Positions 4,134-54,853 of a stretch of DNA of 64,000 bases are shown piece after piece (within the stretch, counting starts at the first letter, position 1; each line of letters begins with the position of its first letter). Below the pieces are notes generated by a model. It saw only the letters and a program-made list of their open reading frames with translations, was not told the DNA's origin and ran no database searches. Source of the stretch: Acidimicrobiaceae bacterium (GTDB lineage: Bacteria > Actinomycetota > Acidimicrobiia > Acidimicrobiales > RAAP-2); assembly GCA_003158855.1 (NCBI GenBank), contig PMLJ01000033.1, positions 1 through 64,000 on the forward strand, read 5' to 3'. Position numbers and translations under genes: made by a program.

Positions 4134-5008
4134 GTGAGCAGCGTGGGCAGCTGCCGGGCGAGCTCGGCGACCTCCCAGCGGTCGTTCTTCTCAAGGGTCT
4201 CGGTCATGGTCCAGTTCTGGAACCTTCGGACCGTGCCGCCCTGCACGAAGAACACCTGACCGGTGAACTCGCAGTCCTCCATGGCGAGGGTCGCGACGAG
4301 TGGCGAGATGTTCCCCGGATCCCAGACGTCGAAGACCGCGGCGTCGGCGGGCTTGACGACGTGGTCGGAAAGGCCCGGGGTCGATTTGGTCATTCGAGTC
4401 CGCGCCGCCGGGGCAATGGCGTTGGCCCGCACGCCGTAGCGCCCGAGCTCTTCGGCGATGATCACGGTGAATGCCGCGATGCCCGCCTTCGCCGCCCCGT
4501 AGTTCGATTGGCCGACATTGCCAATGAGCCCTGATGTTGACGACGTGTTGATAATCGAAGCCTTGACGGTCTTGCCAGCCTTGGCCTGCTCGCGCCAGTG
4601 GTTGGCGGCGTGGCGGGTGGGCACGAAGTGACCCTTCAAGTGCACGTGGATCACCGAGTCCCAGTCATCTTCGCTCAGATTCACGAGCACGCGGTCGCGC
4701 AGGATTCCTGCGTTGTTCACGAGCACGTGCAGGTCGCCGAAGGCGTCGAGCGCACTCTGAACCAGGCGGGCGCCGCCTTCCCACTGCGCCACGTCATCGT
4801 GGTTCGCCACCGCGTCGCCGCCCATGGCCTTAATCTCGGCGACGACCTCTTCGGCCGGTGAGGCAGACATCACGGATCCGTCGAGGGCCCCGCCCAGGTC
4901 GTTCACGACAACCTTCGCTCCTTCAGCGGCGAAGAGCAGCGCGTGTTCCCGGCCAATGCCTCGTCCCGCGCCGGTGATAATGGCCACACGACCCTCAAGT
5001 GCGCCCAC
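4130..5008 (-). CDS. Short-chain dehydrogenase/reductase (3-oxoacyl / hydroxysteroid dehydrogenase-like)
   Basis: A protein of 292 aa with a classical SDR fold: TGAGRGIG at residues 12-19 (cofactor binding), NNAG at 98-101, Ser157, Tyr170 and Lys174 as the catalytic set. The acidic residue after the second strand (VVVNDLGG) suggests NAD(H). The long C-terminal part with FDVWDPGNISPLVATL resembles SDRs linked to the HSD17B4 (peroxisomal multifunctional enzyme) group, so a 3-hydroxyacyl-CoA or steroid substrate is plausible. GTG at 5008 is chosen because a G-rich ribosome-binding site (GGGGGG) lies six bases upstream and similarity starts there; the open frame continues to 5158 without support. 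Confidence 0.88.
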   Translation of the reverse strand: MGALEGRVAIITGAGRGIGREHALLFAAEGAKVVVNDLGGALDGSVMSASPAEEVVAEIKAMGGDAVANHDDVAQWEGGARLVQSALDAFGDLHVLVNNAGILRDRVLVNLSEDDWDSVIHVHLKGHFVPTRHAANHWREQAKAGKTVKASIINTSSTSGLIGNVGQSNYGAAKAGIAAFTVIIAEELGRYGVRANAIAPAARTRMTKSTPGLSDHVVKPADAAVFDVWDPGNISPLVATLAMEDCEFTGQVFFVQGGTVRRFQNWTMTETLEKNDRWEVAELARQLPTLLT

Positions 5009-5073
5009 GGTGATCCCCCCAAGAAAGAAAGTCGTGCCTCGATTGTAACGACGATTGGAAGAGTTACGAGGGC

Positions 5074-5364
5074 CTAGCCGCGACGACGGAAGTAGGGCCG
5101 ACGCGCGTGAGCGTGATAGTGATCGGGAATGTTGCGCATGTGATCGTCGAGGGACCAATTGCCCTCACCGAGCACTCGGTCGGCCACGCGGCCCAGACTC
5201 TCTTGAAGCGTCTGCTTCACATCCTCGGGCGGCGTGGGGCTGTGAACGCGCCACACCACCATCGGCACGAGGCAGATCTCGCAGTCGGCTATCCAGCAGG
5301 TTTCGTCCTCGAAGTAGCGCGTGCTGATGATCGCCGCTTCACAGAGGTCGCAGTCCGCGCTCAT
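5074..5364 (-). CDS. Small Cys/His-rich protein, HIT-like
   Basis: A protein of 96 aa. It has CDLC near the N-terminus, then CWIADCEICLVPMVVWRVH and a C-terminal IPDHYHAHARR. The paired Cys motifs and the His-x-His pattern resemble a compact HIT/GalT-type metal site. I recognise this only as a conserved-looking small family, not as a characterised enzyme, and no catalytic HxHxHxx triad of true HIT hydrolases is complete. The ATG overlaps the stop of the upstream PASTA receptor gene (ATGA at 5361-5364), so translation is probably coupled to it. A longer frame reaching 6108 is only antisense-frame noise within the receptor gene. Confidence 0.75.
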   Translation of the reverse strand: MSADCDLCEAAIISTRYFEDETCWIADCEICLVPMVVWRVHSPTPPEDVKQTLQESLGRVADRVLGEGNWSLDDHMRNIPDHYHAHARRPYFRRRG

Positions 5365-7256
5365 TCCCTGACGTTCAAGATCACCGTCGAGTGCCACTTC
5401 ACCATGGTGCCCGCGGCCGGAACCGTTGAAACGACCGACTTCCACGCTGTCGTACCCGCCCCCGGTCCCTTCGTGGAGAAGTAGAGCTGCGCCTTGCGCA
5501 TGGCGGCGTAGACCTGAGCCTGGTTCATCCCGGCGAGGTTGGGCACCGCACGCGGGCCCTCTCCCGCGAGGGTTGTGGTTGTCGTTGAAGTCGACGTCGT
5601 GGTCGTGGTCGGCGGCGTGGTCGTGGTCGTGGTCGGCGTCGTAGTGGTCGTGGTCCCCGAGGAGGGTCCGGGTCCGGTGCTGATCACGAGGCTCAACCTC
5701 GAGCCCGCCGGCACCGCCAACGGATTGACCGTCTTGCCGAAGAGGACCTCGGCGATGACTCCCGATGCGACGCGCGTGCTCGCCATGGACGTCGCGCACG
5801 TCGCGCTGATCTGCAGCGTCTTCAACTTCGCGGTGGCCGCGGCGCAGGTTTCGCCGATCAACGACGTGGGCAACGTCTCCGATGCGGGACCCTTTGACAT
5901 GTCGACCGTGATGGCGAGTCCAGTTTTCGCACTCGTCCCTTGCGCGGGCGACTGGGAGACGATCTGGCCCTTGGGCACCGTGGTCGAATTGACCTGCGTC
6001 ACGGTGAGCACGAACCCGTCGCCCTTCAGTTTCGCGGATGCCTGAGCAAGGGTCGAGCCGACGAGTTGGGGAACGGTGTGCTTCTGGCTGAAGACGCCGA
6101 GCTTCCACGCGGTGCCGCCGCCGACTCCGGCGAGAACGATGAGGATCGCCGCGGCGACGAAGGCGATGCGTTGCTTTCGGGGCGGGCGCGACGGTGGAAG
6201 CGCGTCAAAGCCTCTTGGTGCCGATGGGCGCGTCGACGCGAAACTACGCGCAACCGAGGCTGGCTCGGTCCCGGGCCGCGGGGCCTGGGGCCTGGGGAAC
6301 TGCGGCGTCGTCGCCTGCACGGACCGCGTTCCGACGATCTGGTCCGGCGAAGGCGGTCGAAAGCCGATGGACGTCCGCGGCTCAGCAAGCGGGAACTGCG
6401 CCAAGAGCGGCATGTCGCCTTGACGCGTGCGCACGACGAGCGGAGCCGAGTCACTGACGACCGCACTGAGCCGGCTCGAGAACTGCTCCGCGGTGAGGCG
6501 CAGCCGCGAATCCGACACTGCCGCCTGGGCGAGAAGCATGTCAAGGGTGCCGAGTTCAATGCGCACGGGGAGCGGCGTGTTGATCCGCGCGCGCAGCATC
6601 GCCTCGGGAGTCGTACCGTCAAACGCGGACGAGCCCGTCGCCGCCTCAAAGAGGATGAGCGCCAGCGCGTAGACGTCCGATTCCGGTCCAGCTTTCTCGC
6701 CCACCGCCTGTTCGGGACTCATGTAGCGCGTGTCATCGAGAGTCAGTTGCTCACGATAGGGATTTCCGAGACCCGCGAGGGCGATGTCGCTCACGCGCAC
6801 CCGGCCCTCGGCGTCGAAGAGCAGCTTGCTCGGCGAGAGCTCACCATGGACGAAGGCGTTGGCGTGAACGTAACTGAGCGCGCCCGCGACGTCGCGGCCA
6901 AGGCGCGCCACGTCATCGATATCGAGCGTTCTTCCGGCGCGCAGAACATCTTCCAGCGAGCCGCCAGAAAGATACTCGGTGATCATGAAGATGGCACCCG
7001 ACTCCTGGCCGCCGTCAAAGACCCGGGCGAGGTGCGGATGGCTGAGGGTGGCGGCACGCACGATGCGATCGCGAAACGCCCGGCGGACGTCCTCGTGAGC
7101 CGCCAGGGAGGGCAGGAGGACCTTCACCGCGACCGTTCGGCTCAGTGAGAGGTCCTCGGCGCTGTAGACCTCCGCGGTCTGGCCGACGCCCAGCAACTCG
7201 ATGATGCGATAACGACCCGCGAGGTCGTGTCCGGAGGCAAAAGTTGAAGGAAGCAT
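5361..7256 (-). CDS. PASTA-domain receptor with degenerate Ser/Thr kinase domain (probable pseudokinase)
   Basis: A protein of 631 aa. Residues 14-260 form a PknB-like kinase domain, 300-360 a Pro-rich linker, 361-385 one transmembrane helix, and the outside part has PASTA-like units at about 393-457, 458-528 and 568-631, with a Thr-rich stretch at 535-563 before the last. The Gly-loop (GVGQTAEVY), Lys45 (VAVKV) and the YMSPEQ/SDVYALALILFE motifs remain. The catalytic loop reads HGELSPSK (137-144) where active kinases have HRDLKPxN, so the Asp, Lys and Asn are Glu, Ser and Lys; the DFG site reads SDIAL with Asp157 kept. PASTA domains bind muropeptides or lipid II, so an envelope-sensing or scaffold role is likely. 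ATG at 7256 is the first start before the conserved domain. Confidence 0.9.
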   Translation of the reverse strand: MLPSTFASGHDLAGRYRIIELLGVGQTAEVYSAEDLSLSRTVAVKVLLPSLAAHEDVRRAFRDRIVRAATLSHPHLARVFDGGQESGAIFMITEYLSGGSLEDVLRAGRTLDIDDVARLGRDVAGALSYVHANAFVHGELSPSKLLFDAEGRVRVSDIALAGLGNPYREQLTLDDTRYMSPEQAVGEKAGPESDVYALALILFEAATGSSAFDGTTPEAMLRARINTPLPVRIELGTLDMLLAQAAVSDSRLRLTAEQFSSRLSAVVSDSAPLVVRTRQGDMPLLAQFPLAEPRTSIGFRPPSPDQIVGTRSVQATTPQFPRPQAPRPGTEPASVARSFASTRPSAPRGFDALPPSRPPRKQRIAFVAAAILIVLAGVGGGTAWKLGVFSQKHTVPQLVGSTLAQASAKLKGDGFVLTVTQVNSTTVPKGQIVSQSPAQGTSAKTGLAITVDMSKGPASETLPTSLIGETCAAATAKLKTLQISATCATSMASTRVASGVIAEVLFGKTVNPLAVPAGSRLSLVISTGPGPSSGTTTTTTPTTTTTTPPTTTTTSTSTTTTTLAGEGPRAVPNLAGMNQAQVYAAMRKAQLYFSTKGPGAGTTAWKSVVSTVPAAGTMVKWHSTVILNVRE

Positions 7257-7284
7257 TAGCGCTACTAACCCTAGTAAGGACTGG

Positions 7285-10373
<3,089 letters not shown>

Positions 10374-52800: not shown

Positions 52801-53336
52801 TTTTCCAAGAAATCAAGCCCGGCGTCGCCGCTCTTTTCCGGGTGGAACTGAACACCGAGGAACGAGCCGCGCTGCACGGCGACGGTGATGCCCTCCGAGG
52901 TGGCGATTGCGTCGGGCGACTGGGCGGCGAACGAGTGGGCGAAGTAGTAGGTGTCGCCCCACGGCTCGACCATGGCCCAGCCCAGTCGCGGGACCCTTCC
53001 CGACGTGAGACGCACCGCTTCACCGCTCAACAGCCCCAGACCTTCAACCCCACCGTCCTCTTCGCTCGCCTCCAACGCCAGTTGCATTCCGAGGCAGATC
53101 CCGAGGGTCGGGCCGTCGGCGTCGAAGCGGTCGCGAAGCGCGGCTGCGGCACTGGTCTCGTTGAGGTGGGCCATGGCGCTCCTCGCGGAGCCGACGCCCG
53201 GGAGCACGACGTAGGACGCGTGGGTGATCTTGGCGGGATCGGCGGTGACTTCACTGGTCCGGCCCAGGTGCGTCAGCGCCGCCCGCACCGAACGGGTGTT
53301 GCCCGCGCCGTAGTCGACGACGATCACGTCGGTCAT
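52782..53336 (-). CDS. hisH: Imidazole glycerol phosphate synthase, glutamine amidotransferase subunit
   Basis: A protein of 184 aa. VVDYGAGNTRSV is the start, GICLGMQLAL holds the catalytic Cys, and VQFHPEKSG the His and Glu of the triad. It supplies ammonia from glutamine to HisF. The ATG overlaps the end of the hisC-hisB fusion by four bases. Confidence 0.96.
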   Translation of the reverse strand: MTDVIVVDYGAGNTRSVRAALTHLGRTSEVTADPAKITHASYVVLPGVGSARSAMAHLNETSAAAALRDRFDADGPTLGICLGMQLALEASEEDGGVEGLGLLSGEAVRLTSGRVPRLGWAMVEPWGDTYYFAHSFAAQSPDAIATSEGITVAVQRGSFLGVQFHPEKSGDAGLDFLEKCLSLV

Positions 53337-54853
53337 AGTGAACCCTTGGTGGAACGCACGAGCGAGCCATCACGGGTCATCGCCTGGGCGAGGGCGCGCC
53401 CGACCGCCTTGAACGACGCCTCGGCGACGTGGTGGGCGTTCTTGCCCGTGGCGGTCACGTGCAGCGTGATCCGCGCTGTCTGGGCGAGTGATTCGAACGC
53501 GTGGGCGGCCATGCCTGGATCGGGCGAGATCGAGATATTGGCCGTGGCGCGACCCGACAGGTCCACCACCGCGTGCGCAAGCGCTTCATCCATGGGAACT
53601 CGCGCCTCGCCGTAACGGGTGAGGCCGCGGCGGTCGCCGAGCGCCATGTCGAGCGCCTCGCCGAATGTGCGCATCATGTCCTCGACGGTGTGGTGGTCGC
53701 CGGTCTCGAGGTCTCCGACACCTTCGAGTCGAAGGTCCATGCCTCCGTGAAAGGCCAACTGGGTGAGCATGTGGTCGTAGAAGCCCTCGCCGGTGTGGAC
53801 GTAGACGCGCCCCTCGCCGGGAACCCGCAATCGAACGGTGAGAAGGGTTTCGGCGGTGGCGCGACGGTGGCGCAGCGACGGCGTCGGCATGGCTTCGCCC
53901 TTCAGCTCGGCACGCAGCGCGTCGAGCAGCACGTCGTCGTCCAACTCGTCTCGGACACTGATGCGCAGACCGCCTGAAAACGCCCGCACGATCACTCCGT
54001 GGGGCATCAATCGGTCGACGATGTCCTGGGGGTTGTCCATCGGGATGTAGAGGAAGTTCGTGTACGAGCGCAGCGGCACCAGCCCCAGCGCGCTGAGCTC
54101 GGCCGACAAGCGCTCACGCTCGGCGATCTGGCCCGAGACGTCGACCGGCGTGGCGAGCGCGGCGAGCGCGAGTGACGCCGAGAGCGACGATACCGAGAGC
54201 GGGGCCTGGCGCGACGTGATGACCGCCGTCAGCTCGGGAGTGGCGATGGCGTAGCCAACGCGCGCCCCGGCCAGGCCGTAGGCCTTGGAGAACGTGCGCA
54301 GCACGATCGCCCCGTCGACCACCCGGTCGAGAGCGTCGACGCCCGCGTACTGGGCGTAGGCCTCATCGATGATGAGCTGTCCCGGCACGTCGGGAATGTC
54401 GGGCAACTCGCCGGTGGGGTTGTTCGGGCGGCACACGAACACGAGGTCCGCCTTCTCGGGATCGTCGATGACGGTCGCCCCAGCCATCAGCGCCGCGTAG
54501 CGGTACATCGAATACGACGTCGTCGGCACCGTCGCGACCGTGCCGCCCTCGGCGAAGATGCGAGCGAGCAGCACGATGAACTCGTCGCTGCCGGCCCCGA
54601 GCGAGATCTGGTCGAGTCCGACGCCGTGGTGGGAGGCGATGGCTCGGCGAAGGGGCTCGTAGCGACCACGGTCGTATTCGTTGATGTCCGCGAGCGCTCT
54701 CGCGAGTGCGGCGGGCCGGGCGCTCGCGGGCGGCGTCGGCGGGACGTTGCCGTCGAATCGGATGATGGAACGAGCATCGATTCCGACCTGCGCGGCGATG
54801 ACTTCATTCGAGGGTGGCCACTGGTAGGCGTCGAGGGCGACTGGCTTGTTCAT
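53333..54853 (-). CDS. hisCB: Fused histidinol-phosphate aminotransferase / imidazoleglycerol-phosphate dehydratase
   Basis: One uninterrupted frame of 506 aa joins two enzymes. Residues 1 to about 320 are HisC: FDGNVPPTPP, SLGAGSDEFI, CRPNNPTGELP, and the PLP lysine Lys190 in RTFSKAYGLAGARVGY. Residues about 326-506 are HisB: GFYDHMLTQLAFHGG (357-371), DHHTVEDMM (386-394) and KNAHHVAEASFKA (471-483) hold the manganese ligands. The two activities are steps 7 and 6 of the pathway, so the substrate of one is the product of the other. A Met at 322 could allow separate HisB translation, but no stop lies between. It overlaps hisD and hisH by four bases each. Confidence 0.96.
   Translation of the reverse strand: MNKPVALDAYQWPPSNEVIAAQVGIDARSIIRFDGNVPPTPPASARPAALARALADINEYDRGRYEPLRRAIASHHGVGLDQISLGAGSDEFIVLLARIFAEGGTVATVPTTSYSMYRYAALMAGATVIDDPEKADLVFVCRPNNPTGELPDIPDVPGQLIIDEAYAQYAGVDALDRVVDGAIVLRTFSKAYGLAGARVGYAIATPELTAVITSRQAPLSVSSLSASLALAALATPVDVSGQIAERERLSAELSALGLVPLRSYTNFLYIPMDNPQDIVDRLMPHGVIVRAFSGGLRISVRDELDDDVLLDALRAELKGEAMPTPSLRHRRATAETLLTVRLRVPGEGRVYVHTGEGFYDHMLTQLAFHGGMDLRLEGVGDLETGDHHTVEDMMRTFGEALDMALGDRRGLTRYGEARVPMDEALAHAVVDLSGRATANISISPDPGMAAHAFESLAQTARITLHVTATGKNAHHVAEASFKAVGRALAQAMTRDGSLVRSTKGSL

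Follow-up and report, generated by a model that had tools for sequence, protein, structure and literature searches.

The gene at positions 5361 to 7256 on the minus strand of a 64,000-nt stretch of DNA from an Acidimicrobiaceae bacterium (assembly GCA_003158855.1, contig PMLJ01000033.1; the whole stretch is hereafter called the window) encodes a PASTA receptor whose kinase domain is very probably a conserved, catalytically dead kinase. In Gram-positive bacteria, PASTA kinases have a major part in regulating the cell wall. Our sequence comparisons show that the gene belongs to a second type of PASTA kinase, adjacent to ligA across much of the order, which throughout the genus takes the form of a pseudokinase. 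The presence of a dead PASTA receptor beside a live one in the same genomes lets one ask whether dimer contacts alone suffice for signalling, and repeated loss at one locus would represent a natural experiment.

The 631-aa protein comprises a kinase-fold domain, a linker, a transmembrane segment and two PASTA domains, with Pfam matches to Pkinase (100.6 bits, residues 16-225) and to PASTA (83.2 bits, two stretches). Translation places HGELSPSK at residues 137-144, where HRDxKPxN is expected, VAVK at 42-45, SDIAL at 156-160 and MSPEQ at 179-183. It bears out an earlier reading of the DNA letters by themselves (the sequence-only reading), which had described this catalytic-loop replacement in a protein that retains the Gly-loop, the β3 lysine (Lys45), the DFG-position aspartate (Asp157) and the SPE; the alanine of VAVK is kept as well. 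Two further elements have been lost: Arg64 takes the place of the αC glutamate, and Asp-Asp at 174-175 that of the P+1 Gly-Thr of GTxxY. Bacterial pseudokinases have been defined by the lack of one or more of the β3 Lys, the HRD Asp and the DFG Asp (PMC12599244, accessible part), and in the window protein the HRD Asp is Glu139. The protein scored 266.6 bits with NF033483, the model for PknB/Stk1 PASTA kinases, below the cut-off of 450; HGELSPSK and SDIAL stand in place of the HRDxKPxN and DFG of that family, and extracellular PASTA domains follow one transmembrane segment as they do there (two domains over the cut-off, the segment placed by eye). Since the Arg-Asp pair is present in 66 of 66 other bacterial kinases, drawn from the best 80 of 458 matches of a pattern scan whose patterns do not cover the HRD loop, the loss of the catalytic loop is not a matter of chance.

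The substitutions extend throughout the genus, for which we compared the window protein with the orthologues of 25 of the 26 relatives found among 100 genomes (n=26; the assembly of genome G093 is without the gene, and the named loci L097, L101 and L106 were kept out). The HRD arginine (G25 A1), the HRDxK lysine (S20 A2 R2 H1 T1) and the Mg-binding asparagine (K20 S2 L2 T2) are lost in all 26 sequences and the HRD aspartate in 25 (A9 S6 G5 E4 Q1 D1). Most sequences have also lost the αC glutamate (Q7 R6 E6 H4 N2 V1), the P+1 Gly-Thr and the DFG Phe and Gly. The replacement loop is itself conserved (H24, G25, L26, S20, P26, K20) around the drifting position 139, a pattern that points to a new constraint and not to decay. 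The β3 position reads K20 H4 R2 and the DFG Asp position D24 G2; because the lysine is thus lost in 6 of 26 sequences and the aspartate in 2 of 26, nucleotide binding is, to judge by these residues, not a requirement common to the pseudokinases of the genus. A strain-specific mutation or a sequencing error was ruled out by the genus-wide loss, and a pseudogene by the open frame and by the ratio of nonsynonymous to synonymous substitution (dN/dS) given below.

Outside the genus the picture is different in most lineages. The family set covered 73 genomes and gave 70 kinases from 69 of them (G045 provided two, L193 and L210, perhaps by contamination; G042 and G087 yielded PknB only; G074 and G082 were left out). 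Of 99 genomes of the order, 68 had a match at E 1e-40, the other 31 being uncounted, and 60 sequences were used, leaving out the PknB-type L242, L270, L273 and L279, three duplicates and L249 (HRDVKPAN), which has no match to the window protein at E 1e-40; G134 and G155 are also absent. The partial sequences L197 and L208 were excluded from the kinase tree and included in the Arg-Asp and neighbour counts. Arg-Asp is kept in 63 of the 70 ligA-linked-type kinases from other genera of the family and in 58 of the 60 order sequences. The seven exceptions in the family are five sequences of genus g10, that of genome G006 in genus g7 and one of genus g19. All five g10 sequences (L082, L178, L184, L189, L199) read HGA[VIM]KP[AG]N or HGAVTPAN and have Arg for the β3 Lys, and G006 has HSAITPTN. 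The g19 sequence (L060, genome G019) reads HGDLKPSN with the Asp kept and the Lys, Glu and DFG intact, possibly an intermediate step, sister to g10, in which the HRD Arg alone was lost. The two exceptions in the order, L271 (G149) and L280 (G190), belong to family f51 and show HGGIAPSN and HSGIAPSN together with DFAL and FGP[TS]FY. As side observations, the g10 pseudokinases have lost the DFG Gly and keep the αC Glu and the Asn, and L192 (G073), an active-looking kinase of the ligA type with an intact HRD, has VASQ at the β3 Lys, either an error or a fresh loss.

Orthology of these kinases was anchored by their neighbours. By tblastn with the window genes, the order cysteine desulfurase - mnmA - ligA - kinase - HIT (histidine triad) - SDR (short-chain dehydrogenase/reductase) is kept in the genus and in much of the family, where the names cysteine desulfurase, mnmA, ligA and SDR are partly our presumption, and the ligA-kinase pairing is kept in much of the order. 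The gene that we take to be ligA adjoins the kinase in all 25 genus relatives, in 49 of the 70 family loci from outside the genus and in 42 of the 60 loci of the order; contig ends and short flanks account for some of the misses. Because the inactive groups lie among ligA-linked kinases of the family and order that mostly look active, we take the ancestor of these kinases to have been active. An active ancestor, genus-wide loss (26/26 sequences, the conservation in relatives to which the sequence-only reading had pointed) and purifying selection thus support the pseudokinase status that it had proposed.

The number of losses was approached with several trees. The kinase tree, which has long branches, puts g10 near the genus (support 86). 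In a concatenated tree of neighbour genes (41 rows), g10 and g19 group with g7/g14 (96/94), away from the genus. In a quick concatenated tree of four neighbour genes (82 rows), the Arg-Asp state changes three times and the Asp four times within the family, and a clade of the genus, g10 and g19 is rejected by the approximately unbiased test (p-AU 0.0104); a single origin of all the losses in the family was discarded accordingly. The ligA-only tree (125 sequences) leaves the genus/g10 node without resolution and gives three changes of Arg-Asp and five of the Asp, which may include a regain in L047. With g10 and g19 placed away from the genus, G006 nested in g7 among sampled members that are otherwise active, and f51 a separate family, the HRD Asp would on that reading have disappeared from this one locus on at least four occasions, in the genus, g10, G006 and f51.

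The dead domain is maintained. As estimated pairwise by NG86, where several pairs have dS >1 so that absolute values are rough, its dN/dS is 0.034-0.127 over six pairs, with the extracellular part higher in 6 of 6 (0.074-0.316). Three more genus pairs gave 0.037-0.120, two g10 pairs 0.015-0.043 and eleven pairs of active relatives 0.026-0.152; by these estimates purifying selection acts on the dead domain about as strongly as on its active relatives. Moreover, 34 of 277 positions are invariant in the genus. Taking as reference the 71 positions whose conservation reaches 95% or more among 66 active kinases (61 ligA-type and 5 PknB), the reference residue is kept in the genus at a mean of 0.32 for 13 catalytic positions and 0.76 for 55 others (Mann-Whitney p 7.6e-5, for related sequences). 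An AlphaFold2 model of residues 1-285 (43-row alignment) shows a complete kinase fold, with a mean predicted local distance difference test (pLDDT) score of 90.6 and a predicted template modelling score of 0.89. Foldseek with the predicted domain listed PknA, Stk1 and PknB first, and among solved structures StkP and PknB are closest in sequence. R15, L38 and D81, by alignment the counterparts of the PknB dimer residues R10, L33 and D76, are kept in 26 of 26 genus sequences. The equivalents of the Leu and Asp are dimer residues of the MviN pseudokinase (PMC12599244, accessible part).

No second kinase was found in the window, in line with the sequence-only reading; four PF00069 matches over the cut-off were found in the genome, the window gene and three elsewhere. 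One of the three is the canonical PknB, which reads HRDVKPGN and carries four PASTA domains; before it come genes for an FhaA homologue (FhaA_N and FHA domains), another FHA protein, a PP2C phosphatase and a penicillin-binding protein (PBP). Of the other two, one has HRDVKPSN and one is a weaker PF00069 match. All 31 genus genomes searched gave a PknB match, one of them as a fragment only, and PknB reads HRDVKPGN in 30 of 30 loci read; the matches L294, L295, L304, L305 and L312 contain one TAG inside the aligned span. Because a further kinase lies elsewhere in the genome and PknB was matched in every genus genome searched, it is plausible that the pseudokinase serves as partner for another kinase.

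The activation loop of PknB itself differs in these genomes. The activation-loop threonines, T171 and T173 in the LTQTG of M. tuberculosis PknB (PMC3052367, accessible part), have diverged in the genus: all 51 genomes read are without the second, and 44 of the 51 (L283-L312, L389-L409) and, beyond these, G093 are without the first. Outside the genus all 63 loops read have the first and 40 of them the second (64 loci, L386 being unread); seven of seven further loops and L354 also keep the first, so that its loss was found only in the genus among the PknB loops read. Among the 26 genomes in which both genes were read, the first threonine is gone in all 19 that have a window-type pseudokinase, whereas all seven that have the other type keep it (G009, G028, G056, G072, G078, G088, G097), and in the subclade of the window PknB is without both. 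These patterns hint that PknB control was rewired when the second receptor died. A link between loss of the second threonine and pseudokinase genomes in particular was ruled out, as it is gone also in active g7 and g14 genomes and in seven order genomes with an active ligA-linked kinase.

A second conserved element lies in the juxtamembrane linker, where a PR.SIGFR.PS motif stands out from poorly alignable sequence. By a strict pattern it is matched in 20 of 25 genus relatives, and GFRAPSxDELTQ-like forms occur in g19, g11, g14, g7, g6, g10 and g18, in active and inactive proteins alike; it was not found by patterns in g4, g8 or g15. We infer that the motif predates the catalytic loss and survived it.

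The most likely interpretation is a non-catalytic receptor acting by N-lobe dimerisation, perhaps with PknB. The extracellular PASTA domains would read cell-wall material, and the inner domain, no longer transferring phosphate, would work through protein contacts. The likeliest contact would be a back-to-back N-lobe dimer with the canonical, active PknB as partner, through which the dead receptor could tune PknB allosterically; the conserved juxtamembrane motif might dock a further cytosolic protein. N-lobe dimerisation activates mycobacterial PknD and PknB allosterically, and how outside ligand binding controls a PASTA kinase inside is debated (PMC3601408, accessible part). The MviN domain keeps its back-to-back dimer without ATP binding (PMC12599244, accessible part). 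We give an even chance to the statement as a whole, that of a selected dead PASTA receptor working through N-lobe contact with PknB, and regard the mechanism with PknB as partner as a tentative proposal. A stronger version is unlikely, namely that in the window's subclade, where PknB is without both threonines, the two are paired receptors in which the dead one replaces activation-loop phosphorylation as the PknB switch through an N-lobe heterodimer, at a locus that repeatedly turned pseudokinase. Several observations weigh against the statement as a whole. The 19 genomes with the window-type pseudokinase form one side of a branch (71/99), so that the loss of the first PknB threonine is possibly one coincidence on one branch; a serine two residues further on, in 46 of 51 genus PknB proteins, could take over; and the second threonine is absent in 23 of 63 loops outside the genus, some of them in genomes with an active ligA-linked kinase. 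Because full retention is seen at 24 of 58 conserved positions outside the catalytic set, with a chance of about 0.07 for three of three, conservation of the dimer residues is weak evidence when taken alone. The model alignment is rich in active kinases and may favour a canonical fold, and L047 (LGDLSPGS) as well as the named loci L098 and L104 (HADLSPDK) have an Asp where the HRD Asp would stand.

Among the alternatives, a homodimeric scaffold resembling MviN is rather unlikely; here the GFRxPS motif of the tail or a phosphothreonine placed by PknB would recruit an adaptor such as FhaA, with no regulation of PknB. The MviN precedent (PMC12599244, accessible part), the FhaA homologue, second FHA protein, PP2C and PBP that precede PknB, and the conservation of the juxtamembrane motif in pseudokinases and some active relatives are all consistent with it. 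However, the motif reaches 20 of 25 genus relatives by the strict pattern, an FHA partner is putative, and the Thr of the ELT in active relatives is absent from the window protein, which has QIV; the ELT phosphosite was accordingly discarded as a general docking signal. A nucleotide sensor or altered enzyme would bind ATP through Lys45 and Asp157 and switch shape or perform other chemistry, for which SelO and SidJ offer precedents (PMC12599244, accessible part). Such a role would fit the Gly-loop, Lys45, Asp157 and VAVK Ala of the window protein and the presence of the Asp in 24 of 26 and of the β3 Lys in 20 of 26 genus sequences, but orthologues with VAIH and AGLGL (L052, L053) or VAVR (L054, L059), replacement of the VAIK Ala in half of the sequences (0.50), and loss of Asn144 in 26 of 26 and of the αC Glu in 20 of 26 make it improbable.

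It is very improbable that the protein is a PASTA decoy whose extracellular part competes for muropeptides above an inert relict. Two PASTA domains are retained, and PASTA alone, when overexpressed, alters mycobacterial growth (PMC4632501, accessible part); yet an inert relict is at odds with the 34 invariant positions and with a dN/dS that is lower in the pseudokinase domain than in the extracellular part in every one of the six pairs. Finally, the acidic residue at the HRD-Asp position in the window protein and some relatives (Glu, sometimes Asp) could suggest a weakly active, atypical kinase using another base, an idea that is hardly credible given the drift of this position (A9 S6 G5 E4 Q1 D1) and the lack of the Mg-binding Asn throughout the genus.

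StkP, PknB and PknA are the best sequence and fold matches of the window protein, which shares with PASTA kinases of the PknB/StkP type the order kinase-transmembrane-PASTA and the N-lobe dimer residues, and differs from them by the loss of the catalytic loop, the P+1 loop and the αC Glu. It has two recognised PASTA domains, whereas the separate canonical PknB of the genome has four. The bacterial pseudokinase families listed in the accessible part of PMC12599244 are ActPs1-3, GLW, CP1, DYD and DLHK. MviN (ActPs3) is likewise an actinobacterial membrane-linked pseudokinase with the N-lobe Leu and Asp, which the window protein has as L38 and D81 (26/26); MviN has a known role in the cell wall, and the window protein probably has one too. 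Unlike MviN, in which all three catalytic motifs are degraded, it keeps Lys45 and Asp157, has PASTA domains and no MviN membrane domain, and would have arisen from a ligA-linked PASTA kinase. ActPs1, ActPs2 and DYD are also actinobacterial pseudokinases with motif patterns that differ from those found here (same source, accessible part): in ActPs1 all three residues are substituted and the G-helix is absent in about 60%, whereas the window protein keeps Lys45 and Asp157 and has a predicted helix at 217-226 that we take as the G-helix; ActPs2 has a β3 Arg, Asn for the HRD Asp and a deleted DFG, as against VAVK, Glu139 and Asp157; and DYD has a β3 Arg with HRD and/or DFG retained, as against a kept β3 Lys and a lost HRD, the missing αC Glu being common to both. 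PASTA is named once in the accessible part of that paper, in a reference title, and no PASTA pseudokinase was described in the titles or abstract openings of the open-access literature searched. The window protein is unusual among bacterial pseudokinases for its full PASTA receptor architecture and its apparent repeated origin at one locus.

The 96-aa neighbour P0002 had been described in the sequence-only reading as HIT-like, which its predicted model upholds (pLDDT 80.8, 12-row alignment): it has a HIT fold and the histidine triad, aligns with HINT1 with a VIA-align Z of 11.1 over 91 residues at a root-mean-square deviation of 2.9, and gave a best Foldseek E of 0.010. H82, H84 and H86 (HxHxH) and five cysteines are invariant in 12 sequences. 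It resembles HINT-type proteins in predicted fold and HxHxH motif, and is unlike them in its 96 aa, its two CxxC pairs and its lack of a family assignment, with no Pfam family at E up to 0.1 and no NCBIfam match. The functional pair that had been suggested for the two proteins was not supported as a special one. By tblastn, the P0002 gene adjoins the kinase in 20 of the 25 relatives in the genus, in 51 of the 70 family loci from outside the genus and in 2 of the 60 loci of the order, counts that are lowered by short flanks and contig ends, and in the order the gene may also be truly absent. As it follows active and inactive kinases of the family alike, it is uninformative on the catalytic loss, and a dedicated partnership with the pseudokinase was rejected.

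Table 1. Features of the pseudokinase locus (positions in the window).
Feature	Position	Strand	Remark
PASTA receptor, predicted pseudokinase	5361..7256	-	631 aa + stop, ATG at 7256
Kinase-fold (pseudokinase) domain	6453..7220	-	about residues 13-268; Pfam 16-225, AlphaFold2 model 1-285
VAVK, β3 Lys45 retained	7122..7133	-	Lys in 20/26 of genus
αC Glu position, Arg64	7065..7067	-	
HGELSPSK in place of HRDxKPxN, residues 137-144	6825..6848	-	
SDIAL, DFG Asp157 kept, Phe and Gly lost	6777..6791	-	
LDDTRYMSPEQA: Asp-Asp for P+1 Gly-Thr, SPE kept	6705..6740	-	
Juxtamembrane linear motif PRTSIGFRPPSPDQ, residues 293-306	6339..6380	-	conserved amid poorly alignable linker
Transmembrane segment, residues 364-384	6105..6167	-	placed by eye from sequence
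PASTA domain 1	5892..6077	-	
PASTA domain 2, membrane-distal	5370..5546	-	
P0002, 96 aa, predicted HIT fold (CxxC, HYHAHAR)	5074..5364	-	start overlaps pseudokinase stop (ATGA)
Presumed ligA, NAD-dependent DNA ligase	7285..9318	-	conserved upstream neighbour, orthology anchor

The pseudokinase ATG lies 28 bases past the ligA stop, and no sigma-70-like promoter was found in 4900-7600; at gathering thresholds Rfam gave no match anywhere in the window. The 64,000-nt stretch belongs to one contig (C6) of a 2.7 Mb assembly that is 96.48% complete and 2.49% contaminated. Among the best 80 of 458 matches, the closest named relative of the pseudokinase is from the metagenome-assembled genome Acidimicrobiaceae bacterium isolate palsa_657, at 97% identity. 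Elsewhere in the window, a 506-aa frame at 53333-54853 on the minus strand joins an aminotransferase class I/II domain to an imidazoleglycerol-phosphate dehydratase (IGPD) domain, an apparent HisC-HisB fusion of histidine biosynthesis.

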